DNA of 64,000 bases, taken from the NCBI RefSeq assembly GCF_016735685.1, contig NZ_JAERRA010000001.1, positions 62,001-126,000 on the forward strand. Reading direction: 5' to 3'. Shown here piece by piece: positions 15,760-33,203 of this stretch. Numbering within the stretch: the stretch's first letter is position 1; each line of letters begins with the position of its first letter. Origin of the DNA: Piscinibacter lacus (lineage in GTDB: Bacteria; Pseudomonadota; Gammaproteobacteria; Burkholderiales; Burkholderiaceae_C). Both the position numbers and the translations under genes were made by a program. Below the pieces are notes generated by a model, which was given only the letters and a program-made list of their open reading frames with translations, was not told the DNA's origin and did no database searches.

Positions 15760-15807
15760 CGTCGGCTCTGGCCGCCGGCACCCCGCATGGCGCGCCGACC
15801 CGACGCC

Positions 15808-16761
15808 ATGCTGAGCTTCCAACAGATCATCCTCCGCCTCCAGCAGTACTGGAGCGACCGCGGCTGCGCCCTGCTGCAACCCTATGACATGGAAGTGGGC
15901 GCCGGCACCAGCCACACCGCCACCTTCCTGCGCGCGCTCGGCCCCGAGCCCTGGAATGCCGCCTATGTGCAGCCCAGCCGCCGTCCCAAGGACGGCCGCT
16001 ACGGCGAGAACCCCAACCGCCTGCAGCACTACTACCAGTTCCAGGTCGTGCTCAAGCCGGCGCCGGCCGACATCCTGGAGCTGTACCTCGGCAGCCTCGA
16101 AGCCCTGGGCTTCGACCTGAAGCAGAACGACATCCGCTTCGTCGAGGACGATTGGGAGAACCCCACCCTGGGCGCCTGGGGCCTGGGCTGGGAGGTCTGG
16201 CTCAACGGCATGGAGGTGACGCAGTTCACCTACTTCCAGCAGGTCGGCGGGATCGACTGCAAGCCCATCACCGGCGAGATCACCTACGGCCTGGAGCGCC
16301 TGGCGATGTATCTGCAGGGCGTGGAGAAGGTCTACGACCTGGTCTGGACCACCGATGCCCAGGGTCGCAGCCTGAGCTATGGCGACGTCTACTTGCAGAA
16401 CGAGCAGGAGCAGAGCGCCTACAACTTCGAGCACAGCAACGTCGACTTCCTCTTGCAGGCCTTCGGCGCGCACGAAGGCACGGCCGAGCAGCTCATGGGC
16501 CAGCAGCTCGCCCTGCCGGCCTACGAGCAGGTGCTCAAGGCCGCCCACACCTTCAACCTGCTGGACGCGCGCGGCGCGATCAGCGTGACCGAGCGGGCGG
16601 CCTACATCGGCCGCATCCGCAAGCTGGCGCGCAGCGTCGCGCAGAGCTACCTCGACAGCCGCGCCCGCCTGGGCTTCCCCATGGCCCCGCGCGCCTGGGC
16701 CGAGGACGTGCTGGCGCAACTTGCCGCCCGCCAAGAGAAGAACGACAAGAAGGCGGCCTGA
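15808..16761 (+). CDS. glyQ: Glycyl-tRNA synthetase alpha subunit
   Basis: 317 residues of the catalytic subunit of the bacterial alpha2beta2 glycyl-tRNA synthetase. Conserved blocks are visible: [54 protein letters not shown] and [20 protein letters not shown] place the start at MLSFQQ because that matches betaproteobacterial GlyQ; an ATG 21 bp upstream (15787, MARRPDA) is possible. glyS follows after 2 bp. Confidence 0.95.
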
Positions 16762-16763
16762 GC

Positions 16764-18914: not shown

Positions 18915-18934
18915 TCTTCCCTCCGGAGCCCGCC

Positions 18935-19579
18935 ATGCCCAGCCCGCGCGACGCCGCGACCAAGCTTGTGATCCTCGACCGCGACGGCACCATCAATGCC
19001 GACCGCGACGACTATGTGAAGTCGCCCGAGGAATGGATCCCCCTGCCCGGTGCGCTCGAAGGCGTGGCGCGGCTGAACGAATCGGGCTTCCATGTCGCGG
19101 TCGTCACCAACCAGAGCGGCATCGGCCGCGGCCTCTTCGACATGGCCACCCTCAACGCCATGCACCTGAAGATGCACGGCCTGATGGCCGAGGTGGGCGC
19201 GCGGGTCGACGCGGTCTTCTTCTGCCCGCACGGCCCCAGCGAGGACTGCAACTGCCGCAAGCCCAAGCCCGGCCTGTTCGAGCAGGTCGGCCAGCGCTTC
19301 GGCGTGAACCTGAAGGGCGTGCCGGCCATCGGCGATTCCCTGCGCGACCTGCAGGCCGCCGCCGCCGTCGGCTGCGAAACCCACCTGGTGCGCACCGGCA
19401 AGGCCGAGGGGCTCAGCGACGAAGCCGTGGCCGAACTGGCCGCCCAGGTTCCGGGCACCGTGGTGCATGCCGACCTGCGTGCCGCAGCCGACTGGCTGAT
19501 CCGGCGCGAGCGCAGCCGCAAGGCCGCCGCCCAGGCCGCCAAGGCCCAGGCCGCCGCCGGCGGCGCCAGCGCCGGATGA
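18935..19579 (+). CDS. gmhB: D-glycero-beta-D-manno-heptose-1,7-bisphosphate 7-phosphatase
   Basis: 214 residues of a HAD phosphatase for the ADP-heptose pathway of lipopolysaccharide core. Motif I is LDRDGTIN with the two Asp, and VTNQSGIGRG is motif II. The zinc-loop Cys/His set appears as CPHGPSEDCNC, followed by RKPKPG and IGDSLRDL. The last 30 residues are an Ala/Lys-rich tail not expected in the fold. It sits 20 bp after glyS, and its stop overlaps the plsC ATG (ATGA). Confidence 0.93.
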   Translation: MPSPRDAATKLVILDRDGTINADRDDYVKSPEEWIPLPGALEGVARLNESGFHVAVVTNQSGIGRGLFDMATLNAMHLKMHGLMAEVGARVDAVFFCPHGPSEDCNCRKPKPGLFEQVGQRFGVNLKGVPAIGDSLRDLQAAAAVGCETHLVRTGKAEGLSDEAVAELAAQVPGTVVHADLRAAADWLIRRERSRKAAAQAAKAQAAAGGASAG

Positions 19580-20340
19580 GCGCCGCCGCCACGACGCTGG
19601 CCGCGCTGCGCTCCACCGTCTTCCTGCTGTGGATGGCCGGCACGCTGATCGTCTACGCCAGCGTGGCGGTGCTGCTTTCGCTGGTGCTGCGCGGCAAGCC
19701 CTTCTACTGGTTCTGCAGCGGCTGGATGCGGCTGGCGGTTCATGGCGCGCGCTGGATCTGCGGCGTGCGCTGGCGCCTGCACGGCTACGAGCGGGTCGAG
19801 GCCCTGGACCGCGCCGGCACGCCGGTGATCCTGACGCCCAAGCACCAGTCGGCCTGGGAGACGCTGGCCTTCCCGGCGCTGATGCCGCGGCCGCTGGCCT
19901 TCGTGTTCAAGCGCGAGCTGCTCTTCATCCCCTTCTTCGGCTGGGCGATCGCGCGGCTGGACATGATCCACATCGACCGCAGCAAGCGCGCCCAGGCCTG
20001 GGCCAAGGTGGCGCGGCAGGGGGCGGAGTTCCTGCAGCGCGGGCTGTGGGTGATCATGTTCCCCGAGGGCACGCGCACGCCGCGCGGCGCCCAGGGCGAC
20101 TACAAGACGGGCGGCGCGCGCCTGGCGCTGGCGACCGATGCGGTGCTGCTGCCGATCGCGCTGACCTCGGCGCGCTGCTGGCCCAAGGGCGGCTTCATCA
20201 AGCGGCCGGGCGTGATCGACGTGTCCTTCGGCCCGCCCATCCCCAGCGCAGGCCGCTCGCCCGAGGCCCTGATGGCCGAAGCCGAGGCCTGGATCGAGGC
20301 GGAGATGCGGCGGCTGGATCCCGCGGCTTATCGAGGCTAA
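19576..20340 (+). CDS. plsC: 1-acyl-sn-glycerol-3-phosphate acyltransferase family protein
   Basis: 254 residues of the membrane acyltransferase that makes phosphatidate. An N-terminal hydrophobic segment (about 10-40) leads to the catalytic motif KHQSAWET, an HX4E version of the usual HX4D that I recall as common in this branch of betaproteobacteria. MFPEGTRTPRG follows as the substrate motif. The start overlaps the gmhB stop by 4 bp, so glyQ-glyS-gmhB-plsC read as one unit. It could instead act on another lysolipid. Confidence 0.88.
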   Translation: MSAAATTLAALRSTVFLLWMAGTLIVYASVAVLLSLVLRGKPFYWFCSGWMRLAVHGARWICGVRWRLHGYERVEALDRAGTPVILTPKHQSAWETLAFPALMPRPLAFVFKRELLFIPFFGWAIARLDMIHIDRSKRAQAWAKVARQGAEFLQRGLWVIMFPEGTRTPRGAQGDYKTGGARLALATDAVLLPIALTSARCWPKGGFIKRPGVIDVSFGPPIPSAGRSPEALMAEAEAWIEAEMRRLDPAAYRG

Positions 20341-20398
20341 GCCCAGGGGCTGGGCGCTTCATGAGTGCTTGATCCTGCGTGTCGAAGCGCGGTGGGCT

Positions 20399-20477
20399 GG
20401 CGTGGTGAGGCGCAGGGCCGTGGTGTGGTGAGGCGCGGGGCTCTGGCGTGGTTAGGCGCGGGGCTCTGGCGCGGTGA
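20399..20477. repeat. 23-bp tandem repeat, about 3.4 copies
   Basis: Three full 23-bp units (20399-20421, 20422-20444, 20445-20467) and a partial fourth (20468-20477), each built around GG(C/T)GTGGTGAGGCGC. Units 2 and 3 differ at only two positions; unit 1 differs more at its end. It begins about 60 bp after the plsC stop. Confidence 0.85.
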
Positions 20478-20570
20478 AAGCCGGCGAGCCCCCACCCCCG
20501 GCGGGGCTTCGGGGCTGGCCCCCGCCGAAGGCGGGGGTGCCCTGCGCTTCTCGCGTCGAGAACCCTCCGG

Positions 20571-20604
20571 CCCCAACTCGCGCTGCGCGCTCAGACAAGG
20601 GGCC
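20571..20604 (+). repeat. REP-like element, copy A
   Basis: A 34-bp block beginning CCCCAACTC and ending CTCAGACAAGGGGCC, with a small internal hairpin GCGC-TGC-GCGC at its centre. The same block lies inverted at 20909-20944. The two copies differ by a compensated base pair in the central stem. Confidence 0.75.
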
Positions 20605-20908
20605 TCCCGGGCCCTCGCCGCTGCGATGCTCGGCGGCGCCCAGGCGCCCCGCCGGGGGTGGGGGCTCGCCTTGCGGCATCGCGGGCGCACGCAAGAACAG
20701 ATGCGGCGGTCGCGCCGCCAGACCGCAGCGAGCGCAGCGATGCGGCTCTTGTCGCCCGGTACGTGCGGCGCGATGTGCTGGCGCGCAGCAACCCATCAGC
20801 GAGCGCCAGCGATGCGGCCCCCCGCGGTGCGGGCGGGGGTTGCGGGGCGATCAGAAGCCTCGCCGAGCCGCGCAGTGGGGGCGGGTTGCCGGGGCAGGGC
20901 CCCGGCTC

Positions 20909-20944
20909 GGCCCCCCTTGTCTGAGCCCGCAGGGCGAGTTGGGG
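20909..20944 (-). repeat. REP-like element, copy B (inverted)
   Basis: Inverted relative of the element at 20571-20604, 36 bp. Read on the minus strand it begins CCCCAACTC, has the central hairpin GCCC-TGC-GGGC and ends CTCAGACAAGGGGGGCC. It differs from copy A by a 2-bp insertion and one compensated pair. Confidence 0.75.
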
Positions 20945-21141
20945 GGACGACCCGCCGCCGCGAGCAGCGAGGGAAGCCGGGGCCCCGAACGGGGCCCCGG
21001 CCGAGGCTTCGCCCCGCAGCCCCAGCCCGCACCGCGGGGGGCACGCGCCACCCGCCGCACCCCACCCTCACCTCGCCCCAACAAACCCGGCGCCAAGCGC
21101 GGGCCCCAAGCACAAGGCCCCGCGCCCGAAGCCCGAAGCGC

Positions 21142-22482
21142 TCAGGACACCTCCAGCGGATCCCGCTTCGCCGGTGACCCCACCCCCGCCACCTGCAGCG
21201 CCGGCCCGCCGCGCAATCGCCGCTCGATGGCCTCGGCCAGGTAGAGCGCATCACGCGCCACGCCGGAGAAACGGCCCGAGCCCCAGGTGTGGAGCCAGGG
21301 CAGGCCCAGGAAGTACAGGCCCGGCTGCGGGCTGATGCCGCGCTGATGCACCGGATGGCCCCGGCCGTTGAAGACCGGTGCATCGACCCAGGCGAAATCC
21401 GGCTCGAAGCCGATGCACCAGACGATGGCTGCCAGCCCCGCCTCCGCCAGCGGCAATGCGGTGCGCTCGGCGGGCGGCGCCCAGACCGGCGTGTAGACCG
21501 AGGCCGGCGGCGCCGCCAGCCCCTGCGCGGCGATGTGCTTGTCGATCGCCGCATTGATGCCGTTGTAGACCCGGTCGGCCTGGTCCAGCGCGGCGGCCAG
21601 GCCCGGCTCGAAGAGCAGGCGCTCGCCGTCGAAGCCGCGCAGCAGGCCGTAGAGCTGCATGCCCTCGGCGGCGAACTGGCGCAGGTCGATGTCGCGCCCG
21701 CCGTCGCGGCCGGTCACGTAGTGGTTGGTGTTGTCGCGCACGCCCTCGCGCAGCGGATGCTGCTCGACCGGCATGTCGTAGTAGCCCATGTCGGCCAGCC
21801 AGTCGACCACGTCGCGGCCGCGGTAGAAGCGCGCGCAGCGCGGCGCGTCACCCACCGCCAGCAGCACCTGGCGGCCGGCCAGATGCAGGTCCTCGGCGAT
21901 CTGCGAACCGCTCTGGCCCGAGCCGACCACCAGCACCGCGCCGGGCGGGAACTGCGCCGGATTGCGGTACTGCTCGGAATGGACCTGCACGATGCCCGGC
22001 GGCAGGCGCTCGGCCAGCCGCGGCACGATGGGCCGGTGGTAGCCGCCGGAGGCCACCACCACTTCATCGGCCGTGCAGGTGCCGGCCGAGGTCTGCACGC
22101 GGAAGCCGCCCTCGGGCCGCGGCGACACGCGCTGCACGGCCACGCCCTCGACCAGCGGCGGATCGACCTTGGCGCGGAAGGCGGCCAGGTAGTCGAGGAT
22201 CTGCGGCTTGGTCATGAAGCCATGCGGCTCGGGGCCGTCGTAGTCATGGCCCGGCAGCTTGCACTGCCAGTTGGGCGTGACCAGGCTGAAGGCATCCCAG
22301 CGCGCATCGGCCCAGGCATGCAGGGCCTGCTGCTTCTCCAGCACCAGGTGGACGAGACCGCGCTGCTGCAGGTAGTGCGAGACCGACAGGCCGGCCTGCC
22401 CGCCCCCGACGACCAGCACCGGATGGTGGGGCGGCGGGGCATCGGCAGCACCGAGGGCCTGGGCGGGGTCGAGGTTCGGCAT
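21142..22482 (-). CDS. nitH: Flavin-dependent oxidoreductase of the Nit1C cluster (MSMEG_0569-like)
   Basis: 446 residues resembling flavin-containing monooxygenases. The FAD-binding motif VLVVGGGQAGLSVSHYLQQRG lies at the N-terminus and a second dinucleotide motif VLVVGSGQSGSQIAEDLH in the middle. The sequence ends in a conserved GLPWLHTWGSGRFSGV region. The ATG at 22482 is chosen because AGGAGA precedes it by a normal distance. It is the last gene of an eight-gene minus-strand cluster. In related clusters this oxidoreductase is one of the fixed members, but its substrate is unknown. The nit letter follows the published Nit1C naming as I recall it. Confidence 0.82.
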   Translation of the reverse strand: MPNLDPAQALGAADAPPPHHPVLVVGGGQAGLSVSHYLQQRGLVHLVLEKQQALHAWADARWDAFSLVTPNWQCKLPGHDYDGPEPHGFMTKPQILDYLAAFRAKVDPPLVEGVAVQRVSPRPEGGFRVQTSAGTCTADEVVVASGGYHRPIVPRLAERLPPGIVQVHSEQYRNPAQFPPGAVLVVGSGQSGSQIAEDLHLAGRQVLLAVGDAPRCARFYRGRDVVDWLADMGYYDMPVEQHPLREGVRDNTNHYVTGRDGGRDIDLRQFAAEGMQLYGLLRGFDGERLLFEPGLAAALDQADRVYNGINAAIDKHIAAQGLAAPPASVYTPVWAPPAERTALPLAEAGLAAIVWCIGFEPDFAWVDAPVFNGRGHPVHQRGISPQPGLYFLGLPWLHTWGSGRFSGVARDALYLAEAIERRLRGGPALQVAGVGSPAKRDPLEVS

Positions 22483-22520
22483 GGCGATCTCCTGGGAAGG
22501 GGTGGCGGACGGGCCGCGGC

Positions 22521-22802
22521 TCAGGCGGGGTCGAAGGGCAGCAGCTCGATCCGCGCCTCGAGGCCGAAGCGGGTGGCGGTGGCCTCGATCTGCGCAAGCT
22601 GGTCGGCCGCAGCCGAGCAGGCGAAGCCGTACTTGGCCCGCACCCGCTCGGAGGCAATCTGCATGCAGTCGCGGATCTCGACCAGGAAGGCGTCCAGCCG
22701 CATCGGGCCGGGCCGCAGGCGCTCGCGCACGATCAGCGAGGGCGAGTAGCAGGCCATCACCGTCTGATCGGGCCAGCGCAGGTGGTAGGTCATCGCGGGC
22801 AT
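22521..22802 (-). CDS. nitG: Small nitrogen-starvation-response protein of the Nit1C cluster (MSMEG_0570-like)
   Basis: 93 residues, no known catalytic motif. It opens with MTYHLRWPDQ and YSPSLIVRERL, has a central AFLVEIRDCMQIASERVRAKYGFACSAA stretch and ends on EARIELLPFD. The pattern and position match the short protein of unknown function that recurs in Nit1C clusters. A start 9 bp downstream (MTYHL) is equally possible. It lies between the glycosyltransferase and the flavin oxidoreductase. Confidence 0.78.
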   Translation of the reverse strand: MPAMTYHLRWPDQTVMACYSPSLIVRERLRPGPMRLDAFLVEIRDCMQIASERVRAKYGFACSAAADQLAQIEATATRFGLEARIELLPFDPA

Positions 22803-22823
22803 GGTGGTCTCGGGCGGAGGGCT

Positions 22824-24179
22824 TCAGGCCGGCAGGTGCAGGGGCAGCGGCGCGGCATGCCGCGCCAGGTGGGCGCGGTAGACGGCCAGGTGGCGTTCGG
22901 CGCTGCGCGCCCAGGCGTAGCGGGCGCAGACGGCCGGTGGCGCCGGACGCGGCCGGTCCAGCGCCTGGACGAGGGCGGCCTGCAGCGTCTCGGGGGCCAG
23001 GGGGTCGCACCAGCTGACCGCAGCGGCCAGCTCGGGCTCGGCCCGCGGGTCGAGGTATTCGGTGAAGGGCGGGTTCTGCGGCACGACCACCGGGCAGCCG
23101 CTGGCCAGGGCCTCCAGCACGACCAGGCCGAAGCCCTCGTTCAGCGAAGGCAGGGCCATCACGTCGGCGCGACGGTAGAGCGAGGGCATCAGCTCGTCGG
23201 GCAGCGGGCCGGTGACGATGACCGGGCTGCCCGGCCCGCCCCAGGGGCCGCGGGCCTCGGCGGCGGCGCAGGCCTCCAGCCGGGCACGGAAGGCGGCCAC
23301 CTCACGGCCGTGGTCGAGCAGGCTGGCGCCACCGGCGATCAGCAGCTGCGCGCCGGGCCGGGCCTGGCGCAGGCCCAGGAAGGCTTCGAGCAGGCGGGCG
23401 GTGTTCTTGCGCGCCTCGATGCCGCCGACCGCGAGCACCACCGGGCCGCCGCCCAGGCCCCAGCGGCGCGCGAGCAGCGCATCGAGCGGCCCCGCGGCCG
23501 GCTGGAAGCGCTGCAGGTCGACGCCGTTGGGCACGGCCTCGGCCGGCCGGCCCCAGTCGCGGGCGAGCTGTCCGGCCCAGTGCGCGCTGACGCACAGCAG
23601 GGTGTCGGCCTCGCGCACGCCGCGTTGCTGGAAGGCGTCGATCACCGGATCGCTGTAGCGGTCCAGGTGGTGCACGGTGCGCAGCCAGGGGCCAATGCGG
23701 CCTTGGGCACGCAGTTCGGCCAGGGCATTGGCGCCGATGCCGTCATGCGCATGCAGCAGGTCCCAGCGGGCCCCGGCGGCCAGGCGGGCGCGCAGATGGG
23801 CGATGTAGCCGGCGATGCGGGCCTCGACCATGGCGCGGGTCGCGCCCGGCGGGGTGGCGGGCACCGGCACCTCCTCGACGGTGCAGGCCGGCGTGCGGAA
23901 CAGCTTCTCGCCCGGCGCGGCCGGCGCGAACAGGGTGACGGCATGGCCGGCCGCGGTCAGGGCCTCGGCCAGCTCCAGACTGTGCACCACGCCGCCGCGC
24001 GGAAGCACCGAATGGGTCAGCAGGCCGATGCGCAGCACCTCGCCCGGGGCGGCCGAGGGGGCGCCGGCCTCGATCACGGTGCCGCGGCTGGCCGGCCAGT
24101 GCCAGCGTTCGCCGGGGCTGCGGCTGATGCGGCGCGGACGGTTCGGCCCGGCGGGGCGTTCGGAGGCGGGCTCAGCCAT
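22824..24179 (-). CDS. Glycosyltransferase of the Nit1C cluster (MSMEG_0565-like, GT4-type)
   Basis: 451 residues with the GT-B fold. The N-terminal acceptor part contains IGLLTHSVLPRGGVVHSLELAEAL and HAHDGIGA. The C-terminal nucleotide-sugar part has VLAVGGIEARKNTARLLEAF, LPSLNEGFGLVVLEALASGCPVV and the EX7E pair within it. The start ATG (24179) overlaps the end of the AIR-synthase-like gene by 8 bp; the next 50 residues are poorly conserved in style. Acceptor and donor are unknown. Its fixed place in a nitrile/cyanide-linked cluster is a clue that a sugar conjugate is made or handled. Confidence 0.82.
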   Translation of the reverse strand: MAEPASERPAGPNRPRRISRSPGERWHWPASRGTVIEAGAPSAAPGEVLRIGLLTHSVLPRGGVVHSLELAEALTAAGHAVTLFAPAAPGEKLFRTPACTVEEVPVPATPPGATRAMVEARIAGYIAHLRARLAAGARWDLLHAHDGIGANALAELRAQGRIGPWLRTVHHLDRYSDPVIDAFQQRGVREADTLLCVSAHWAGQLARDWGRPAEAVPNGVDLQRFQPAAGPLDALLARRWGLGGGPVVLAVGGIEARKNTARLLEAFLGLRQARPGAQLLIAGGASLLDHGREVAAFRARLEACAAAEARGPWGGPGSPVIVTGPLPDELMPSLYRRADVMALPSLNEGFGLVVLEALASGCPVVVPQNPPFTEYLDPRAEPELAAAVSWCDPLAPETLQAALVQALDRPRPAPPAVCARYAWARSAERHLAVYRAHLARHAAPLPLHLPA

Positions 24180-25317
24180 GGACGGACTCGCGATCGGCCG
24201 CAGCCGCGACGGGAAGGATGAAGGACTGCATGCCGGCATCCCACAGCAGGATTGGCGCCAGCCCCGGCACGCTGCCGGCGGCCAGGCACAGCGCGCGGCC
24301 GGGCTCGACGCGGCCGACGGCTGCGCAGGCCAGGCCGGCGGCGGCGAAGTGGTCCTGCACAGCCTGCACCCGGTCCGGCGCCACGCTCAGCACGAAGCCG
24401 TAGCTCGGGAAGGCCTGCAACCAGCGCAGGCGCTCGGCCGGCGCCAGGCCGGGCGGGGCCGGCAGGGCGTCCAGGTCGACGGTGGCGCCCACCCCGGAAG
24501 CCTCCAGCAGCATCAGGGTGCTGCCGAGCACGCCGGCCATGCTGATGTCCTTGGCGGCGCGGCACAGGCCAGCCTCGGCCAGGGCGGGCAGCAGGGCCAG
24601 GTCGGCGCGCAAGCGCTCGGGCGGGGCCTGGGTGCTGGCATTCCAGTAGGGCGCCTCGCCGCGCCAGGCGCCGCGCAGGTCGACGACGACCATCAGCATG
24701 TCGCCCGGCCGCGCCTCGAAGCTGCTGAGCAGGGCGCGCGCGTGGCCGAGCACCGCCACCGCAAGCTGGCCATGCGCCGCACGCAGATTGCTGTGGCCGC
24801 CCAGCACCGGCACGCCGTAGCGGGCGGATGCGGCGGCCAGGCCGGCCAGCACGGGGGCGGCGGCTTCGGCATCGGTCGCCCAGATCGCATCGACCACACC
24901 GATGGCGCGGCCGCCCATGGCGGCGATGTCGCTGAGGTTGACCATCAGCGCGCTGTAGCCGGCGAACCAGGGGTCGCGGGCGACGAAGTCCTCGACCAGG
25001 CCCTCGATCGCGAAAAGCAGGTGGCCGCCCCCGCCCGCCGAGGCCGGCAGGGGAATGGCGGCGGTGTCGTCGCCATTGGGCACGGCCGCCGCCGGGCCGG
25101 TGGCGGCCCAGGCCGGGTCCAGCGCCAGGGCCCAGGCCGGCGGGCGGGCGGATGCGTCGGTGGCGGCCGGGTCGAGCGCGGCGCGCACCGGCGCGATGTC
25201 GGTCTTGTGCGCGAAGCCGCGGCTGGCGCGCAGCGCCTCGGCCAGGGCGGCCAGGGCCCGGGCAGGCTCGATTTCGGCCGCGATCGGCGGCAGGGTCGGC
25301 ACCGGCACGGCAGGCAT
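24172..25317 (-). CDS. nitF: AIR-synthase-like protein of the Nit1C cluster (Sll0787-like)
   Basis: 381 residues of the PurM/ThiL/SelD ATP-binding superfamily. Typical pieces are the acidic NGDDTAAIPLP near residue 80, MVNLSDIAAMGGRAIGVVDAIW, GVPVLGGHSNL and a C-terminal AKDISMAGVLGSTLMLLEASG. These enzymes usually activate a carbonyl or amide with ATP. The start ATG lies 8 bp before the end of the upstream GNAT gene in the same operon. The actual substrate is unknown. Confidence 0.82.
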   Translation of the reverse strand: MPAVPVPTLPPIAAEIEPARALAALAEALRASRGFAHKTDIAPVRAALDPAATDASARPPAWALALDPAWAATGPAAAVPNGDDTAAIPLPASAGGGGHLLFAIEGLVEDFVARDPWFAGYSALMVNLSDIAAMGGRAIGVVDAIWATDAEAAAPVLAGLAAASARYGVPVLGGHSNLRAAHGQLAVAVLGHARALLSSFEARPGDMLMVVVDLRGAWRGEAPYWNASTQAPPERLRADLALLPALAEAGLCRAAKDISMAGVLGSTLMLLEASGVGATVDLDALPAPPGLAPAERLRWLQAFPSYGFVLSVAPDRVQAVQDHFAAAGLACAAVGRVEPGRALCLAAGSVPGLAPILLWDAGMQSFILPVAAAADRESVHG

Positions 25318-25325
25318 GCGCGGCC

Positions 25326-25943
25326 TCAGGCGCGGCGCGCGAAGGCCGCGCTGACGAAGCCGGCCTCGGCCCGCGGGCAGGGCGGATAGGCCTTCAGCTC
25401 GGCCTGCATGAAGCGGTGCGGCCGGCCGTGCAGCGTGCGCGGCCCCAGGCTCTTCCAGTGCAGCTTCTCGAACAGCGGCACATTGGCTTCCTGCACATGC
25501 GCGAAGAAGCCGTGCGCGCCCTGGGCATGCGCGCTGCACACGGCCAGGCGGATCAGGGTGGCGCCGATGCGGCCGACGCTGCGGAAGGCCGGATGCACGG
25601 CCAGGCGCGAGCCCCACCACACGCCGGGCTCCTGCTGCGGGTCTGCATCGGCCGCCTGGTGCAGGCGCACGGTGCCGACGACCTGCTCGGGCTGGCCGCC
25701 CCAGCAGGCCACGGCGACCAGGGTCTGGGCGATCGAGTCGAGGGCATCGCGGTCGTCGCCAACGAAGACGCCCTGCTCGGCACAGAAGACGGCGCGACGC
25801 AGGCGGGCGGCGCCGTCCAGCTCCCAGGGCAGCACCGCGCGCTTGATGCGGAACTCGGCCGGCACGAAGGCCTGCGGCAGCTCGCACCAGGGCGGCAGCG
25901 CGGCGGGCGCGGGCCGGGGCAGGAGGGCGGGGGACGCGTTCAT
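25326..25943 (-). CDS. nitE: GNAT-family N-acetyltransferase of the Nit1C cluster (MSMEG_0567/Sll0786-like)
   Basis: 205 residues with a GNAT fold. FRIKRAVLPWELDGAARLRRAVFCAEQGVF is the conserved opening. GSRLAVHPAFRSVGRIGATLIRLAV holds the acyl-CoA-binding turn, and FFAHVQEANVPLFEKLHWKSLG is near the end. The ATG at 25943 overlaps the stop of the radical SAM gene (ATGA), implying coupled translation. Acyl donor and acceptor are not known. Confidence 0.82.
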   Translation of the reverse strand: MNASPALLPRPAPAALPPWCELPQAFVPAEFRIKRAVLPWELDGAARLRRAVFCAEQGVFVGDDRDALDSIAQTLVAVACWGGQPEQVVGTVRLHQAADADPQQEPGVWWGSRLAVHPAFRSVGRIGATLIRLAVCSAHAQGAHGFFAHVQEANVPLFEKLHWKSLGPRTLHGRPHRFMQAELKAYPPCPRAEAGFVSAAFARRA

Positions 25944-27094
25944 GCCGGCACCCCGTCGAGCGCGCTTTCGTGCACGGCCAGGGTCGAGCAGGCACCGCAC
26001 TTGCCGCAGCCGGCACGGATGTCGGCCGCGCGCAGGCCGCCGGCCTGGAGCATCGCGGCCAGCGGCTGAAGCAGGGCCTGCATGAAGTCGGCCGAGGGGG
26101 CGGGATGGTCTTCCAGCGGCGTGCCGCGGATGGGCACGAAGGGCACGACGAAGGGGTAGACGCCGATCGCGATCAGCTTCTCGCACATCGCCAGGATGGC
26201 TTCGGGCGGATCGCCCAGGCCGGCCAGCAGGTAGCTGCTGACCTGGCCACGGCCGAAGACGGCCACCGCCGCCTCGAAGGCGCTGAAGTAGCGCGACAGC
26301 GGCACGCTGGCCTTGCCGGGCATCAGCTTGTCGCGCAGCGCGGGGCTGACCAGCTCCAGGTGCATGCCGACGGTGGCCACGCCGGCGGCTTGCAGGCGCG
26401 CGAACCAGCGGTCGTCGTCGGGCGGTTCGAGCTGGGCCTGGAGGGGCAGGCTGCGGGCGGGGGTGAGCGCGGCGATGGCCGCAGTGATGGCTTCCGCGCT
26501 GTCGCACAGGACTTGCGCGCCCCGGTCCGGCGTGGGCGGCGTGCCGGTGGTCAGCACCATGTGCTTGACGTCGTCGAGCAGCACGGCGGCGCAGGCCACC
26601 TCGGCAAGCTGGGCCGGCGTCTTGTGCGCGAGGGTGCGGCCGGCCGCGAGCGACTGGCCGATCGCGCAGAACTGGCAGGCCTTGCGCCGGCTCTCGTAGC
26701 GGATGCAGGTCTGGAGCACGGTGGTGGCCAGCACGTCGCGGCCGTGCAGGGTGGCGATCTGGCGGTAGGGGATGCCGTCGGCGGTCTGCCGCGCATAGAA
26801 GCGCGGTTCGGCGGTGAAGCGGATCTCGGCAATCGGGATGCCGCCGCGCTTGAGCACGCTGCGGCCATCGGCCCCCGGCGCCTCGGCCGCATAGGCGGAA
26901 GCGAAGGCCTGGGCGGTGTGCACCGGCACCATCACGGTGTGGCCGTCGACGGTGACGGCCTGGTGGTCGCTGGGCCCGGCGCCGCCGCGGCGGCTGGCGG
27001 CCCCGGCCTGCGGGTCGAGCAGGCGCAGGCCCTGGGCCTGCAACTCGCTCATCAGCACGCGGGCAGCGGGGGTGGGGACGGAGGCGGTGGCCAT
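25940..27094 (-). CDS. nitD: Radical SAM protein of the Nit1C cluster (MSMEG_0568/Sll0785-like)
   Basis: 384 residues resembling biotin-synthase-type radical SAM enzymes. The cluster-binding motif is CIRYESRRKACQFC (Cys130, Cys140, Cys143), giving C-x9-C-x2-C instead of the usual C-x3-C-x2-C. A second Cys group, AGCGKCGACS, sits close to the C-terminus and might hold an auxiliary iron-sulphur site. The ATG at 27094 is chosen as the start of the conserved VLMSELQAQGLRLLD region. It lies between nitrilase and GNAT genes. The reaction is unknown. Confidence 0.84.
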   Translation of the reverse strand: MATASVPTPAARVLMSELQAQGLRLLDPQAGAASRRGGAGPSDHQAVTVDGHTVMVPVHTAQAFASAYAAEAPGADGRSVLKRGGIPIAEIRFTAEPRFYARQTADGIPYRQIATLHGRDVLATTVLQTCIRYESRRKACQFCAIGQSLAAGRTLAHKTPAQLAEVACAAVLLDDVKHMVLTTGTPPTPDRGAQVLCDSAEAITAAIAALTPARSLPLQAQLEPPDDDRWFARLQAAGVATVGMHLELVSPALRDKLMPGKASVPLSRYFSAFEAAVAVFGRGQVSSYLLAGLGDPPEAILAMCEKLIAIGVYPFVVPFVPIRGTPLEDHPAPSADFMQALLQPLAAMLQAGGLRAADIRAGCGKCGACSTLAVHESALDGVPA

Positions 27095-27132
27095 GGCGGG
27101 GCGTCCTTCCAGGGGGCAGCGGGCAGGGGCGA

Positions 27133-28254
27133 TCAGGGCCGGGCCGGCTGGGCAGCCGGCACCTGGGCGGGGCGGGCCGCGGCGGCGGGCGGGGGCGCGG
27201 TCGGGTCGAGGGGACGCACCGGCGCAAGCTCGGCGGGCACAGCCGGCGCGGCGGGGACTGGGCAGGGTGACAGCGTCGATGCCAGGGCCGCAGCCGGCGC
27301 CGCAGCCCCCGGCGGCCCGCCCGCCATGCCCACCACCGCCTGCGCCGGCCGGGTGTTGATCGCCAGGCTCAGCAGCTCGGGCCGGGCATAGTGGCCGACC
27401 GAATCCATCATCCGCTTGCGCTTGTCGATCAGCGCGAAGTCGAGGTCGGCGACGACCATGCCCTCGCCCTCCTTGAGCGGCGGCGCCAGGTGCACGCCCT
27501 CGGGCGAGACGATGGCGCTGCAGCAACCACCGCGCAGGGCCTTCTGCAGGGCGGGGTCGGGCGTGATGCTGGCGATCTGCACCTCATGCAGCCAGCCGGT
27601 GGCATTGACGACGAAGCAGCCCGATTCCAGCGCGTGATGGCGGATGGCGACTTCCATCTGGTCGGCAAAGATCGGCCCGACCATCGAGCCGGGGAATTGC
27701 GCGACGTGGATCTCCTCGCCCTGGGCCATCAGCGCATAGCGGGCCAGGGGGTTGTAGTGCTCCCAGCAGGCCAGGGCGCCGACGCGGCCGACCGCCGTGT
27801 CGACCACCCGCAGCCCGGCGGCATCGCCCTGGCCCCAGACCATGCGCTCGTGGTAGGTCGGCGTGATCTTGCGGCGGTGCAGCAGCAGCCGGCCATCGGC
27901 ATCGAAGACGAGCTGGGCGTTGTAGAGGCTGCCGCCGTCGCGCTCGTTGATGCCGAGCACGACGACCAGGCCGTGGCGGCGCGCGGCGGCGGCCACGGCC
28001 TCCACCTCGGGGCCCGGCACGCGCGGGGCGTGGGCCATCAGGCGCAGGTGGTCGGCGCCCATCGCCACCGGCGGCTTGATGAAGCTGAAGTAGGGGTAGT
28101 AGGGGACGAAGGTCTCGGGAAAGACGACGAGCTGCGCCCCCCTGGCCGCGGCCTGGGCCAGGGCCTCGACCACGCGCTCGGTGGTGCCGGCGGGGCGGTC
28201 CAGGTCCGGCGCGAGCTGCACGGCGGCGGCGCGGACGATGCGGTGGGGCAGCAT
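27133..28254 (-). CDS. nitC: Nitrilase of the Nit1C / Nit6803 type
   Basis: 373 residues of the nitrilase family, which hydrolyses C-N triple bonds to acid plus ammonia. The catalytic triad is visible as Glu47 (VVFPETF), Lys129 (LHRRKITPT) and Cys163 (LACWEHYNP). The family core ends near residue 315. It is followed by about 55 residues rich in Pro and Ala, which look unstructured and are an oddity of this copy. It is the second gene of the minus-strand cluster. Published work ties this nitrilase group to cyanide assimilation; the substrate here is inferred. Confidence 0.88.
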
Positions 28255-28291
28255 GGGCGGAGGCAGTTGGTGGGCAGCGCGTGGCGCGGCG

Positions 28292-28323
28292 GCCCCGCCA
28301 CGACCCGTGGGCCGCGGCGGGGC
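28292..28323. other. GC-rich inverted repeat between nitB and nitC
   Basis: In the 75-bp gap between the first two cluster genes, GCCCCGCC (28292-28299) is repeated inverted as GGCGGGGC (28316-28323) with a 16-base loop. It could act as a transcript stabiliser or partial terminator. This is a prediction from symmetry alone. Confidence 0.35.
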
Positions 28324-28329
28324 GCGGCA

Positions 28330-28812
28330 TCACAGGGTCCAGCTGTGCAGCATGAAGGCGTTGTCGCGGCGGTGGATCAGGGTCAGGTCCAGCACGTCCA
28401 GCGGGTTGATGGGGATCACGCCCTCGATCAGGTTCTTCTCGCTGTGGCCGTAGAGCGCTTGCAGCGCGAAGCGGCAGGCGTAGACCTTGCCGCCTTCGGC
28501 GATGAACTTCTCGATCTGCTTGTTGAAGTTCAGGTGGCCGGGGAAGGCCTCGTCGCCGATCGTCGGGAAGCCGCGCTGCACGCCCAGGGTGACGCCGGGG
28601 CCGTAGAGCAGCACCGAGGTCTCGAAGCCCTTGCGCAGCAGGCGCAGGGCCTGCAGCAGGTTGACCAGGCCGATCGAGCCTTCGAAGGCCACCGTGTGGA
28701 AGGTGACCAGGGCCTTCTCGCCCGGCTGGGCTTTCACGTCCTCGAAGACCTTCTCTTCGTAATCGACAAGGACATCGCCTTTCTGGCGCATCGGCAGGGT
28801 GACTTTGGGCAT
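28330..28812 (-). CDS. nitB: First gene of the Nit1C cluster (MSMEG_0572/Sll0783-like, function unknown)
   Basis: 160 residues, no enzyme motif recognised. It reads [23 protein letters not shown], then [41 protein letters not shown], which looks like an alpha/beta DsrE-like fold, and ends [11 protein letters not shown] single Cys lies in [14 protein letters not shown]. Homologues are induced by nitrogen starvation in cyanobacteria, from memory. The ATG at 28812 is preceded by CTGGAGCC. The gene is the promoter-proximal member of the operon, with a sigma-54 site about 75 bp upstream. Confidence 0.82.
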
Positions 28813-28886
28813 GGCGGCTCCAGGGGATGGGCGGTGCGGGACAGCAGGAAGGAAGGCCGGCCCCGCGGCTCGGCACCGTCCTGCAT

Positions 28887-28902
28887 TGCATCGGCCGTGC
28901 CA
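28887..28902 (-). promoter_or_regulatory. Sigma-54 (-24/-12) promoter for the nit cluster
   Basis: On the minus strand TGGCACGGCCGATGCA reads as TGGCACG-N4-ATGCA, against the consensus TGGCACG-N4-TTGCA, with one mismatch and the exact GG-N10-GC spacing. Transcription would start near 28876, about 64 bases before the nitB ATG. Sigma-54 use requires an enhancer-binding activator such as NtrC, which is not encoded beside it. Confidence 0.75.
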
Positions 28903-28930
28903 TGCCCGGGCCGCGGCGCAGGCCCGGGCC

Positions 28931-28951
28931 TGCAATCAAGTGCCGATCAAG
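28931..28951 (+). promoter_or_regulatory. TGCAATCAAG repeat, first pair
   Basis: TGCAATCAAG at 28931-28940 is followed directly by the related GCCGATCAAG (28942-28951), a direct repeat with 11-bp period. It lies just upstream of the sigma-54 promoter of the nit cluster. A likely half-site for the divergent MocR-type regulator. Confidence 0.6.
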
Positions 28952-29028
28952 CCGCCGCCATGGGCCTGGCCTGTCGACGAGGCCGGTGCCGCCGCGCCGC
29001 GGCCCGCACGTTGGCGGGCGGATGCACT

Positions 29029-29056
29029 ACGGGATTACCCGTGACCGGCCGGTCAC
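29029..29056. promoter_or_regulatory. Two abutting palindromes in the nit/MocR divergent region
   Basis: ACGGG-ATTA-CCCGT (29029-29042) runs into the perfect 16-bp palindrome GTGACCGGCCGGTCAC (29041-29056). Both are candidate operators. They sit about 150 bp upstream of the sigma-54 site, a usual distance for an activator. Confidence 0.5.
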
Positions 29057-29124
29057 CGGCATGGAGGCTCGCGATCGGGCGCACCGGCAGGTGGCGCGCG
29101 GCCGCACCGGCGCAGGGGCGGATC

Positions 29125-29147
29125 TGCAATCAAGCCGCGCGATCAAG
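29125..29147 (+). promoter_or_regulatory. TGCAATCAAG repeat, second pair
   Basis: An exact TGCAATCAAG at 29125-29134 and a half-copy CGCGATCAAG ending at 29147, a direct repeat with 13-bp offset. It lies about 90 bp before the MocR start codon. Confidence 0.6.
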
Positions 29148-29192
29148 CCGTGCTGGTGCGGCCGGCCGGCGGGCCGGGGCCGGCACGTCTCA

Positions 29193-29224
29193 TGCAATCA
29201 AGTCGGCATGCGCCTGCAATCAAG
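29193..29224 (+). promoter_or_regulatory. TGCAATCAAG repeat, third pair (22-bp spacing)
   Basis: Two exact TGCAATCAAG copies at 29193-29202 and 29215-29224, 22 bp apart, that is two helical turns. The second ends 12 bp before the MocR ATG, where a bound protein would block its own gene. This arrangement suggests autoregulation. Confidence 0.65.
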
Positions 29225-29236
29225 AGCCCGCCCCGC

Positions 29237-30664
29237 ATGAGCCCCCTGCCGGCCCACTGGCGCCGCCGCCTTCAGCAGCCCGACCGGCCGGCCTACCTGC
29301 TGCTGGCCGAGCTGATCGCCGAGGACGTGCGCAGCGGCCGCCTGGTCGCGCGCGACCGCCTGCCGACGCTGCGCGAGCTGGCCCAGGCGACCGGGCTGAA
29401 CTACACGACGGTCGCGCGGGGTTATGCCGAGGCGCAGCGCCGCGGCCTGATCGATGCACAGAGCGGCCGCGGCAGCTATGTGCGCGGCAGCGCGCCGGCC
29501 CTGCCGCTGCGCGGCGGCGCAGCGATGACGATGAACCTGCCGCCCGAGCCCGACGACCCGGCCCTGCTGGCGCGCATCCGCGAGGGCGCGCAAGCCGTGT
29601 TCGGCGAGGCCGACCTGCATGCGCTGCTGCGCTACCAGGCCTTCGGCGGCAGCGCCGAGGACCGCGCCGCCGGGGCCGACTGGCTGGCTGCGCAAGTGCC
29701 GGGCGTGACGGCCGAACGCACCCTGGTCGCGCCGGGCATCCACAGCGTGCTGGTGGCGCTGATCTCGCAGTTCGCGCGGCCGGGGCAGTTGATCTGCGTG
29801 GAATGCCTGGGCTACCCGGGGCTCAAGGCGATCGCCGCGCAACTGGGCGTGCAACTGCATGCCCTGCCCTGCGACGAGGAAGGTCCGAGCGCCCTGGCCT
29901 TCGAACATGCCTGCAAGCACTTGCAGCCCCGCGCGCTCTACCTGAACCCGACGCTGCAGAACCCCTCGACGCTGACCATCAGCCGCGCCCGCCGCGAGCT
30001 GCTGGCCGACCTGGCCCTGCATCACAGCGTGCCGATCATCGAGGACGAGGCCTACGCCATGCTGCCCGCGCGGCTGGATGCGCCGGCCCTGTCCACCCTG
30101 GCGCCGGGCCTGGGCTGGTATGTGAGCGGCCTGTCGAAGTGCTTCGGCGCCGGCCTGCGCACCGCCTATGTGGCCGCGCCGAGCGCGCGCGAGGCCGAGC
30201 GCCTGGCCGGCACGCTGCGCGGCCTGTCGGTGATGGCCTCGCCGCTCAGCAATGCGCTGGCGACCCGCTGGCTGCGCGACGGCACCGCCGCGCGCATGCT
30301 GGACGCCGTGCGCCAGATCGGCCGCGAGCGCCAGGCCCTGGCCCGCGAGCTGCTCGGCGCGGTGATGCCGGCCCGCACCCAGGGCGCGCCCGGCGGGCCG
30401 CCGGGCTTGATCGCGCCGGAGGATGGCTTCCATGCCTGGCTGCGCCTGGGCCCGCCCTGGCAGCCGGTCGAGCTGGCCGCCTGGCTGCGCGACCAGGGCG
30501 TGGGCGCGGTCGCGAGCGTCGCCTTCTCGACCGACGGCGACCCGCCCGATGCGCTGCGCCTGTGCCTGGGCGGGCCGCAGTCGCATGCCGACTGCCGGGC
30601 CATGCTCGGCCGCCTGGCCGAGGCGCTGGACCATCCGCGCGCCGCCCAGGGCGCGGCGATGTAG
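29237..30664 (+). CDS. MocR/GntR-type regulator with aminotransferase-like domain
   Basis: 475 residues. The N-terminal winged helix (about residues 15-85) has RLPTLRELAQATGLNYTTVARGYAEA. The remainder is a fold-type I aminotransferase domain with the PLP-binding lysine in SGLSKCFGAG (Lys301), NPTLQNPSTLT and EDEAYAM. MocR regulators use PLP or an amine/amino acid to sense metabolites. The ATG at 29237 is preferred, since an upstream GTG at 29150 would place two TGCAATCAAG operators inside the gene. It is divergent from the nit cluster and so is its likely regulator. Confidence 0.88.
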   Translation: MSPLPAHWRRRLQQPDRPAYLLLAELIAEDVRSGRLVARDRLPTLRELAQATGLNYTTVARGYAEAQRRGLIDAQSGRGSYVRGSAPALPLRGGAAMTMNLPPEPDDPALLARIREGAQAVFGEADLHALLRYQAFGGSAEDRAAGADWLAAQVPGVTAERTLVAPGIHSVLVALISQFARPGQLICVECLGYPGLKAIAAQLGVQLHALPCDEEGPSALAFEHACKHLQPRALYLNPTLQNPSTLTISRARRELLADLALHHSVPIIEDEAYAMLPARLDAPALSTLAPGLGWYVSGLSKCFGAGLRTAYVAAPSAREAERLAGTLRGLSVMASPLSNALATRWLRDGTAARMLDAVRQIGRERQALARELLGAVMPARTQGAPGGPPGLIAPEDGFHAWLRLGPPWQPVELAAWLRDQGVGAVASVAFSTDGDPPDALRLCLGGPQSHADCRAMLGRLAEALDHPRAAQGAAM

Positions 30665-30717
30665 GCCGGGCCGGGCGCGCGCCGCAGGCGGCGTTCGGGG
30701 CCATGGAGGCCCCCACC

Positions 30718-30723
30718 TACAAT
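30718..30723 (+). promoter_or_regulatory. Candidate -10 element for yajC-secD-secF
   Basis: TACAAT in the context CACCTACAATCCCGCGC, 106 bp before the yajC start. This is a common promoter look in this group. A recognisable -35 is missing, so confidence is modest. Confidence 0.4.
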
Positions 30724-30828
30724 CCCGCGCTTCATGCGCCCGGCGCGCCACGGTGAGCCGTGCGCCGCCCCGGTCGCCCGCGCGGGCCGGCCCGCGACCC
30801 AACCGACCCCTCCACGAAGGATCCGATC

Positions 30829-31161
30829 GTGTTCATTGCCCAAGCCTTTGCCCAGACCGCCCCCGCCGCCGCGCCTGCCGGCGGCCCGGAGTCCAGCCTG
30901 CTGTCAATGCTGCCGCTGCTGCTGATGTTCGTGGTGCTGTACTTCGTGATGATCCGGCCGCAGATGAAGAAGCAGAAGGAGCACAAGGCCATGATCGACG
31001 CCCTGGCCAAGGGCGACGAGGTCGTCACCGGCGGCGGCCTGCTGGGCCGGGTGAGCAAGCTGGGCGAGGCGATCCTGCATGTGGAACTGGCCGACGGTGT
31101 CGAGGTCCAGATCCAGCGCCAAGCCGTGGTGCAGGTGCTGCCCAAGGGCACGCTGAAGTGA
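30829..31161 (+). CDS. yajC: Preprotein translocase accessory subunit YajC
   Basis: 110 residues with a single membrane helix (MLPLLLMFVVLYFVMIRPQMKKQKEHKAM) and a cytoplasmic part with GDEVVTGGGLLGRVSKLGE. It accompanies SecDF in the Sec translocon. The GTG at 30829 is chosen: it gives MFIAQAFAQ, the usual start, and has AAGGA upstream. An upstream ATG in frame would add 23 residues of junk. The usual upstream genes queA and tgt are not here; a MocR gene takes that place. Confidence 0.93.
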   Translation: MFIAQAFAQTAPAAAPAGGPESSLLSMLPLLLMFVVLYFVMIRPQMKKQKEHKAMIDALAKGDEVVTGGGLLGRVSKLGEAILHVELADGVEVQIQRQAVVQVLPKGTLK

Positions 31162-31196
31162 TCCGGGCGGCCCGCCGGCCGCCCCCGAGCCCCACC

Positions 31197-31234
31197 GCAA
31201 GGCCGCGGACGCCCGCCGGGCGCCGCGGCCTTGC
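31197..31234. terminator. Long hairpin between yajC and secD
   Basis: GCAAGGCCGCGG (31197-31208) pairs with CCGCGGCCTTGC (31223-31234), and inside it CGCCC pairs with GGGCG around a GCC loop, leaving one bulged A. This gives a 17-bp GC stem without a U-tract, 45 bp before secD. It may attenuate read-through from yajC or stabilise the transcript. Confidence 0.5.
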
Positions 31235-31278
31235 CCCCAAGAAGAAGCCCCCTGCACGGGGCCTGCGAGGATGAGGCA

Positions 31279-33168: not shown

Positions 33169-33203
33169 GGCCGTCCCGAAGCGCGATTCCCCAAGGACCT
33201 CCC

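Follow-up and report, generated by a model that had tools for sequence, protein, structure and literature searches.

A complete Nit1C cluster of the glycosyltransferase-bearing type, adjoined by a divergent gene for a MocR-type regulator, is present in the window, the 64,000-nucleotide stretch of Piscinibacter lacus DNA that was analysed. The eight genes run in a single direction on the minus strand, from position 28812 to 21142. The Nit1C cluster itself is already known as a means by which some bacteria draw nitrogen from cyanide-like compounds, and its glycosyltransferase-bearing type has been described since 2005 (PMC1199592). Nit1C ranges over cyanobacteria, Proteobacteria and hundreds of plasmids. 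With a recurrent regulator, a defined candidate operator and, in many clusters, a gene for acyl activation at a fixed position, its function becomes open to targeted tests of the acyl thioester that NitE takes, the ligand that the regulator senses and the metabolite that is lost without nitD to nitF. The neighbours in other genomes suggest that the cluster may also build a small molecule, a conjecture now within reach of experiment.

Gene content of the cluster and the divergent regulator

The set that defines Nit1C comprises a hypothetical protein, a nitrilase, a radical SAM protein, an acetyltransferase, an AIR synthase, a small hypothetical protein and a flavoprotein, with an optional glycosyltransferase. 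In the window, nitB to nitH and the optional gene are all present on one strand and in the published order. nitB (28330..28812) encodes a 160-aa protein of the MSMEG_0572/Sll0783 family (TIGR04044, 277.5 bits, cut-off 109.85) and nitC (27133..28254) a Nit6803 family nitrilase of 373 aa as called (TIGR04048, 561.4 bits, cut-off 502.6). These are followed by nitD (25940..27094), an MSMEG_0568 family radical SAM protein (TIGR04043, 551.4 bits, cut-off 303.7), nitE (25326..25943), an MSMEG_0567/Sll0786 family GNAT N-acyltransferase (TIGR04045, 207.3 bits, cut-off 68.45), and nitF (24172..25317), an sll0787 family AIR-synthase-like protein (TIGR04049, 401.6 bits, cut-off 321.3). The MSMEG_0565 family GT4 glycosyltransferase gene (about 22824..24038; TIGR04047, 449.5 bits for 24035-22824, cut-off 259.85) has an uncertain start codon, and GTG at 24038 was taken as the start. 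nitG (22521..22802) encodes a 93-aa MSMEG_0570 family protein (TIGR04042, 96.6 bits, cut-off 79.85) and nitH (21142..22482) an MSMEG_0569 family flavin-dependent oxidoreductase (TIGR04046, 653.2 bits, cut-off 498.35).

All eight proteins exceeded the curated NCBIfam cut-offs, so the Nit1C-type assignment made in a first-pass annotation withstood the family search that the annotation itself had proposed as its test. The place and order that it gave for eight co-directional genes were likewise confirmed, with the strand now identified as minus. Its report of few-base overlaps between several genes was not borne out: only nitD and nitE overlap, by 4 bases, and with the called starts the remaining six gaps measure 8 to about 136 bases.

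The regulator gene lies on the plus strand at 29237..30664, divergent from nitB. Its product carries a GntR DNA-binding domain (Pfam PF00392) fused to an aminotransferase-like domain (Aminotran_1_2, PF00155), the architecture of a MocR-type regulator. The nearest named model is EhuR/EnuR, with NF052286 (EhuR) giving 322.3 bits for ORF 29150-30661, below the curated cut-off of 480 for membership of that subfamily.

Conservation was examined in the best 80 of 502 relatives, a set weighted to Burkholderiales and Bradyrhizobium in which the loci are related to each other and counts are non-independent. Only intact proteins with 70% or more of the query length were retained (80 B, 76 C, 76 D, 73 E, 71 F, 49 T, 69 G and 69 H). 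The gene order BCDEF(T)GH was found in 66 of the 80 loci and, with split matches, in 2 further loci; 9 are broken or cut by contig ends and 3 differ. A glycosyltransferase gene is present in 54 of the 69 related loci carrying both nitG and nitH. A MocR-type gene is divergent from nitB in 71 of the 80 loci and downstream in 6 more, the divergent form occurring across 33 of 37 genera or groups, as labelled by hand. NitB and NitD scored over cut-off in the identical 16 of 398 sampled Pseudomonadota genomes, and NitB was found in 515 of 72,556 plasmid records.

Direct repeats between the regulator gene and nitB

A candidate operator, TTGATCGGCACTTGATTGCA, is located at 28931..28950 on the minus strand, 119-138 bases upstream of nitB, as a direct repeat with a period of 11. 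A second candidate operator pair with a period of 13 lies at 29125..29146, and two exact TTGATTGCA half-sites with a period of 22 lie at 29193..29223, just upstream of the regulator start, both on the minus strand. The window as a whole contains five exact TTGATYGCA sites, four of which fall within 28813-29236.

TTGATYGCA pairs 11 bp apart were found in 54 of 80 upstream regions compared with 3 of 760 control windows, which were random, mostly coding stretches from the same loci. Enrichment was also observed for pairs 9 bp apart (26/80 versus 1/763 controls) and 13 bp apart (29/80 versus 1/751). Because of the coding content of the controls, dinucleotide shuffles were added; 30 of these gave a mean of 1.0 and a largest count of 4 of 80 for the 11-bp pairs.

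At up to 2 mismatches, the operator at 28931..28950 is one of two sites in its own genome and the sole exact one, the pattern having been derived from it. The other site (G000:C2:486193, 1 mismatch) has neighbouring genes that were judged by eye to be aldehyde-dehydrogenase-like and DUF779-like; with this single extra site and no clear target, a wider MocR regulon in the genome was rejected. In 15 other Nit1C genomes, the strict pattern with at most 1 mismatch was matched at 30 sites, spread over 9 genomes and absent from 6, versus 2 sites for the reversed pattern. Only 3 of the 15 genomes (G249, G322 and G379) have a match immediately upstream of nitB. One genome (G050) has an overlapping double match to the operator pattern inside an operon judged by eye to encode a sugar ABC transporter.

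Proposed function and alternatives

The reading we favour, tentatively and at a little short of an even chance, is a cluster under MocR control through the repeats, in which a nitrilase step is accompanied by a small molecule made or processed by the other genes. The regulator would bind the TTGATYGCA direct repeats between its own gene and nitB and would use PLP to sense a pathway compound, either a small amine or an N-acyl amino compound. When cells starve for nitrogen, or when cyanide or nitriles are present, NitC would hydrolyse a nitrile (for cyanide, a cyanohydrin), giving ammonia and a carboxylic acid. A small molecule would be made or processed by the remaining Nit1C genes: NitE would use a thioester as donor of a short acyl group, the thioester being supplied in some genomes by the acyl-activating product of a gene that comes after the last nit gene; NitF would perform an ATP-using kinase- or cyclisation-type step; NitD and NitB would contribute a radical, perhaps sulfur-handling, step; NitH would oxidise; and the optional glycosyltransferase would add a sugar.

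The nitrilase is of Nit6803 type by both TIGR04048 and its best PDB match (3wuy, a nitrilase, E 9.3e-144), and the CWEH nitrilase motif is kept in all 76 NitC proteins. This intact motif fits an alternative in which the whole cluster serves NitC for cyanide or nitrile assimilation only, the remaining proteins providing detoxification, repair or redox functions around cyanohydrin hydrolysis. Links of Nit1C to cyanide and nitrogen starvation are published (PMC11049912, PMC8567248, PMC3901256). NitC is required for cyanide assimilation in Pseudomonas, and cyanide residue or cyanoalanine induces Nit1C proteins (PMC11049912, PMC8567248, PMC5333837), the cyanide-containing residue inducing all of NitB-H (PMC5333837). 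Cyanobacterial papers take the same assimilation view (PMC9716671, PMC10119275, PMC3901256). When starved of nitrogen, a Synechocystis nitB (sll0783) mutant showed changes in redox balance and in storage polymer, and the authors read the cluster as nitrile degradation (PMC3901256). The mutant phenotype, as reported there, arises without added cyanide. The passages of PMC1199592, PMC11049912 and PMC3901256 assign chemistry to the nitrilase only. Against an assimilation-only role, which we regard as plausible though doubtful, the radical SAM protein, N-acyltransferase, AIRS-type ATP enzyme and acyl-activating genes have no obvious part in cyanohydrin hydrolysis.

In 28 of the 80 loci an LnmK-type acyltransferase/decarboxylase gene comes after the last nit gene, and in 13 of these it is followed by a methylmalonyl-CoA mutase gene. 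Three plasmids (L102, L151 and L152) carry a PrpE-like (propionate-CoA-ligase-like) gene after the last nit gene. NitE matches FeeM and Acetyltransf_1 in Pfam, and an acyl-activating gene in this position is expected if this GNAT protein accepts an activated acyl group. Among the 68 loci in which nitH is present and over 900 bases lie beyond it, 40 lack an LnmK-type gene, and none was found in the window or in its own genome. TIGR04099 scored over cut-off in 5 of 398 Pseudomonadota genomes, where the 3 best-scoring genes adjoin Nit1C. Genes of LnmK type are also present away from Nit1C, within a polysaccharide region in Roseobacter and within a polyketide-type region in Azospirillum. Locus L061 retains nitB, nitE, nitH, LnmK and the mutase without a nitrilase, which also counts against assimilation alone, though the same genome has a full cluster elsewhere (L085). 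The first-pass annotation had considered the extra enzymes too many for cyanide hydrolysis; accessory genes, regulator, repeats and predicted folds together favour, without proving, a cluster that does more than hydrolyse cyanide.

The predicted NitB fold is DsrE/YchN-like: the best AF2 model (pLDDT 75.6; range over five models, 48.4 to 75.6) matched DsrE/YchN/Tus proteins or unnamed proteins, and Cys113 is invariant in 22 of 22 aligned sequences. Judged from the predicted folds, NitB and NitD may perhaps handle sulfur. It is very improbable that NitB persulfide handling converts cyanide to thiocyanate or a thio-conjugate ahead of the nitrilase: the fold does not show function, the passages of the cited papers describe no sulfur phenotype, and no sulfurtransferase family was noticed by eye among the 40 largest flank families. 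Two cysteines of NitG, C18 and C62, are invariant in 14 of 14 sequences, and the search for relatives gave a single match at E 0.36.

NitD contains CX9CX2C in 81 of 81 sequences and a C-terminal CX2CX2C in 80 of 81. Its AF2 model (pLDDT 88.9) is predicted to be nearest to lipoyl synthases, its NCBIfam relatives are LipS2 and a variant radical SAM model, and its profile gave no match to PDB sequences at E 0.01. Lipoyl synthases (LipA/LIAS) combine the radical SAM motif CX3CX2C with N-terminal auxiliary-cluster cysteines, whereas NitD has the two motifs above and no invariant cysteine before C130; a lipoyl synthase assignment therefore fails. The CX9CX2C motif is reminiscent of Elp3. An Elp3-like reading of NitD and NitE was set aside given these NCBIfam relatives and the absence of Elp3 among the fold matches listed, an absence that is not proof.

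NitF matches AIRS and AIRS_C in Pfam and has ThiL, PurL, HypE and SelD as PDB relatives. In nitrile-forming AIRS proteins of the HypE type, a conserved C-terminal cysteine bears the carbamoyl/cyano group. HypE-like nitrile synthesis was rejected because the invariant or nearly invariant NitF columns include no cysteine; some cysteine occurs within the last 40 residues in 45 of 71 proteins.

The flanks were surveyed through their 40 largest families, named by eye and mostly lacking annotation; L069 was excluded from the clustering because its contig is short. An ABC-transporter ATPase family occurs in 19 loci at varying positions; 5 loci have an amidase-like family. An improbable alternative is catabolism to ammonia of a nitrile conjugate from plants or microbes, either N-acyl or glycosylated, with LnmK, the mutase and PrpE-like enzymes removing the released C3 acid. 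Propionate disposal also suits the propionyl and methylmalonyl enzymes, and the nearest named MocR regulator governs use of an amine-containing nutrient (PMC8739950). The glycosyltransferase and GNAT protein, however, work in the building direction, and neither a glycosidase nor an ABC-transporter or amidase-like family at a constant place was noticed by eye among those 40 families. For the nitrile-bearing conjugate releasing ammonia that had been suggested from the window, nothing was seen to indicate a nitrile on a conjugate or ammonia from one.

A bolder form of the favoured reading, rather unlikely as a whole, is that Nit1C is a widespread biosynthetic pathway for an N-acylated, possibly sulfur-containing metabolite built from a thioester-activated short acyl group. 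The nitrilase would be an internal ammonia-yielding step, and the MocR regulator would sense an intermediate and switch the cluster through the TTGATYGCA direct repeats. The acyl group would be propionyl where LnmK, methylmalonyl-CoA mutase or PrpE-like ligases occur.

Comparison with known systems

The open-access literature searched did not yield a divergent MocR gene, TTGATYGCA repeats or an acyl-activating gene beside Nit1C; in papers naming the nitrilase, Pseudomonas mocR is described as part of a separate cio cluster. EnuR/EhuR, regulators of ectoine use, share the domain make-up of the window regulator and provide its nearest named model. EnuR senses N-acetyl-diaminobutyrate via PLP and has the inverted-repeat consensus ATTGT-N6-ACAAT (PMC8739950), whereas the candidate operators here are direct repeats; inspection by eye of positions 28810-29250 of the window found neither ATTGT nor ACAAT. 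In the related loci, the product of the accessory gene is recognised by the LnmK domain model TIGR04098, as in LnmK of leinamycin-type clusters (PMC9396626), whereas neither a carrier protein nor a polyketide synthase was noticed next to the gene at the loci inspected.

The nit1C cluster of Pseudomonas pseudoalcaligenes/oleovorans CECT 5344 (PMC11049912) has nitBCDEFGH in the same order as the window. Its description places a divergent sigma54 Fis-type NitA beside nitB and lists no glycosyltransferase, whereas the window has a MocR-type regulator and a glycosyltransferase. The Burkholderia and Rubrivivax clusters of Podar 2005 (PMC1199592) agree with that of the window in genes, order, glycosyltransferase between ORF5 and ORF6, strand and last flavoprotein; that paper already treats the cluster as acting as one unit, with its function unassigned there. 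Its account, based on few genomes, gives no conserved genes beyond the cluster, whereas the present comparison places a divergent MocR-type gene at 71 of 80 loci and an LnmK-type gene at 28 of 80.

Composition and distribution of the Nit1C cluster

All eight genes assigned to a Nit1C set in the first-pass annotation scored above the curated NCBIfam cut-offs, the family-model test proposed there, and the cluster is almost certainly Nit1C. In order, nitB, nitC, nitD, nitE, nitF, a glycosyltransferase, nitG and nitH occupy 28812 to 21142 on the minus strand of a window with 71.7% G+C. The several few-base overlaps also described there were not borne out, because with these starts the sole overlap is one of 4 bases between nitD and nitE, and the remaining gaps span 8 to about 136 bases. 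The window genome is very near that of Aquariibacter albus SJAQ100, whose locus encodes a 100% identical NitB and seven further proteins that are 91 to 100% identical. To one side of the regulator-Nit1C block (about 21142-30664) lie glyQ, glyS and a PF01553 acyltransferase gene, and to the other secD and secF, all within 15787-34247; the block sits as if it were a cassette inserted into a housekeeping region.

Relatives were retrieved by NitB alignment, and the best 80 of 502 loci were compared. The order BCDEF(T)GH, where T is the optional glycosyltransferase, was found in 66 of these 80 and, with split matches, in 2 more; 9 were broken or ended by the contig, and the order deviated in L061, L080 and L098. 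Of the 69 loci having both G and H, 54 include the glycosyltransferase. Locus L061 (8473-15523) is partial, retaining only nitB, nitE, nitH, a gene of the LnmK acyltransferase/decarboxylase family and methylmalonyl-CoA mutase, without a nitrilase; it is no proof that this module works alone, because a complete cluster (L085) is present in the same genome. Upstream of the partial cluster lies a gene identified by eye as encoding a CobW-like GTPase. L098 contains B, C, D, H and an LnmK-family gene, with nitF elsewhere in the same genome.

NitB and NitD exceeded their cut-offs in the same 16 of 398 sampled Pseudomonadota genomes, and NitB was found in 515 of 72,556 plasmid records. A Klebsiella plasmid segment carrying Nit1C and an AMP-binding gene (L102) was matched by 428 plasmid records (374 from Klebsiella, 30 from Escherichia), 404 of which contain at least 80% of it. 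Synechocystis sp. PCC 6714 has its Nit1C on plasmid pSYLB (L099), where nitH is divergent and a LuxR-type regulator adjoins. Three loci, from Vreelandella and two Marinomonas (L059, L090, L092), carry an additional nitrilase-like match upstream of nitB, a distant one at 33-35% identity.

More distant matches were also observed. A Rahnella plasmid (L100:7698-8888) encodes a NitD relative (31.9% identity, CX8CX2C) that adjoins an MFS transporter, and the annotation of the surrounding stretch lists no further nit gene. In many genomes (L128-L141), a stretch resembling NitD lies within long open frames of 726 to 939 codons, most of them members of a single family (f39); at 103 to 122 bits it stays under the cut-off. 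Among control genomes, the NitB model matched Methanosarcina acetivorans below cut-off. NitF reached 195 bits against methanogenesis marker 2, short of its cut-off. Part of Nit1C possibly has an archaeal relative.

A divergent MocR-type gene and candidate operator repeats

Divergent from nitB on the plus strand (29237-30664) lies a regulator gene termed MocR-type because its product combines a GntR domain with an aminotransferase-like domain. Of the named models, EhuR comes nearest, with 322.3 bits against a cut-off of 480. Among the best 80 of 502 relatives, 71 loci (33 of 37 groups) have a divergent homologue no more than 2.5 kb upstream of nitB, and 6 more have one downstream in the cluster direction; none was matched in L021, L061 or L069, the last on a short contig. 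A PLP-dependent aminotransferase family protein is annotated beside nitB in 5 of 7 plasmid loci, divergent in four and co-directional in Acetobacter; none is so annotated in the Synechocystis and Acinetobacter loci.

The commonest 8-mers, GCGATCAA and TGATCGCA, each occurred in 45 of 71 intergenic regions, compared with at most 8 in a single shuffle. Pairs of the half-site TTGATYGCA were then counted in the 400-base stretch preceding nitB, with windows from the same loci as controls. Pairs spaced by 11 bp with up to two mismatches were found in 54 of the best 80 of 502 loci versus 3 of 760 control windows, and with one mismatch in 37 of 80 versus 0 of 754; counts over the 80 are not independent because the loci are related, and by group the pair was found in 26 of 37. 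When these upstream regions were dinucleotide-shuffled 30 times, the count at two mismatches averaged 1.0 and never exceeded 4, and at one mismatch it was 0. Spacings of 9 and 13 bp were less enriched (26 and 29 of 80). Of the 71 loci with a divergent regulator, 47 have the 11-bp pair; so do 7 of the 9 that lack one, namely 5 of the 6 whose regulator is downstream plus L061 and L069. Among 15 other Nit1C genomes, only 3 had a match to a stricter repeat pattern immediately before nitB. The window contains candidate operator pairs at 28931-28950 (11 bp) and 29125-29146 (13 bp), and at 29193-29223 two half-sites match exactly with a spacing of 22 bp. Of five exact sites in the 64 kb, four fall in the 424-base intergenic region. 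We infer that the MocR-type regulator binds these repeats.

Acyl genes after the last nit gene and the function of the cluster

An LnmK-family gene follows the last nit gene in 28 of the best 80 of 502 loci (13 groups), an assignment made by TIGR04099/TIGR04098 in three scanned genes; nitH and more than 900 bases beyond it were available in 68 of the 80. The gene lies about 1 kb beyond the last nit gene in L093 and is a fragment in L062. Methylmalonyl-CoA mutase comes next in 13 of the 28 (one mutase scanned). TIGR04099 exceeded its cut-off in 5 of 398 Pseudomonadota genomes; three matches (283 to 299 bits) adjoin Nit1C, and the remaining two genomes score about 131 and have no NitB above cut-off. 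The chance of at least 3 of 5 falling in the 16-genome set is about 5e-4 (hand calculation). A profile search found no TIGR04099-type gene in the window's own genome. Outside Nit1C, LnmK-type genes occur on a Roseobacter plasmid, within a polysaccharide region, and in Azospirillum, where giant SDR-annotated genes stand on both sides and a phosphopantetheine-binding protein is also encoded.

The slot is also occupied in plasmid loci: by an annotated Pnap_2097 (LnmK-type) gene in Agrobacterium, and by genes for propionate-CoA-ligase-like enzymes, which score 443.5 to 526.9 bits against a PrpE cut-off of 955, in Klebsiella, Acetobacter and Pantoea. The Aquabacterium gene is annotated as acyl-CoA/acyl-ACP dehydrogenase and had no Pfam match at 1e-5. 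In Acinetobacter, 4-hydroxybenzoate monooxygenase follows the nit genes, and in Synechocystis no LnmK-type, propionate-CoA-ligase-like or acyl-CoA dehydrogenase gene is annotated in the slot.

Leinamycin-type LnmK converts methylmalonyl-CoA to a propionyl-S-carrier, according to the available part of the source (PMC9396626). The simplest reading is that the accessory genes would ready an acyl group for the GNAT protein NitE. We tentatively favor, at somewhat below an even chance, a dual role in which nitriles are hydrolyzed and a small-molecule pathway draws on an activated acyl group. The first-pass argument that the extra enzymes exceed simple cyanide hydrolysis is partly supported; cyanide and nitrile use alone is a possible, if doubtful, account, breakdown of a conjugate is unlikely, and thio-conversion of cyanide is very improbable. 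For a Synechocystis mutant of the nitB homologue sll0783, the accessible text reports altered redox balance under nitrogen starvation, with nitrile degradation presumed and no function named (PMC3901256).

Comparison with published Nit1C systems

Podar and colleagues named Nit1C in 2005, and the available part of their paper already notes that in Burkholderia and Rubrivivax a glycosyltransferase gene separates ORF5 from ORF6 (PMC1199592), an arrangement that the glycosyltransferase-bearing window cluster resembles. Because Nit1C is published, glycosyltransferase included, the window cluster is a complete further copy of a described type. As far as the literature searched shows, the MocR-type regulator, the candidate operator and the acyl slot are unreported; together they make the question of Nit1C function testable. 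The accessible portions of literature mentioning both MocR and nitrilase contained no MocR-Nit1C connection, and a MocR repressor in Pseudomonas is described there as governing a separate cio-nit4 cluster. The Pseudomonas Nit1C regulator is given in the available text as NitA, of the sigma54 type (PMC11049912), whereas the window cluster has a MocR-type gene divergent from nitB.
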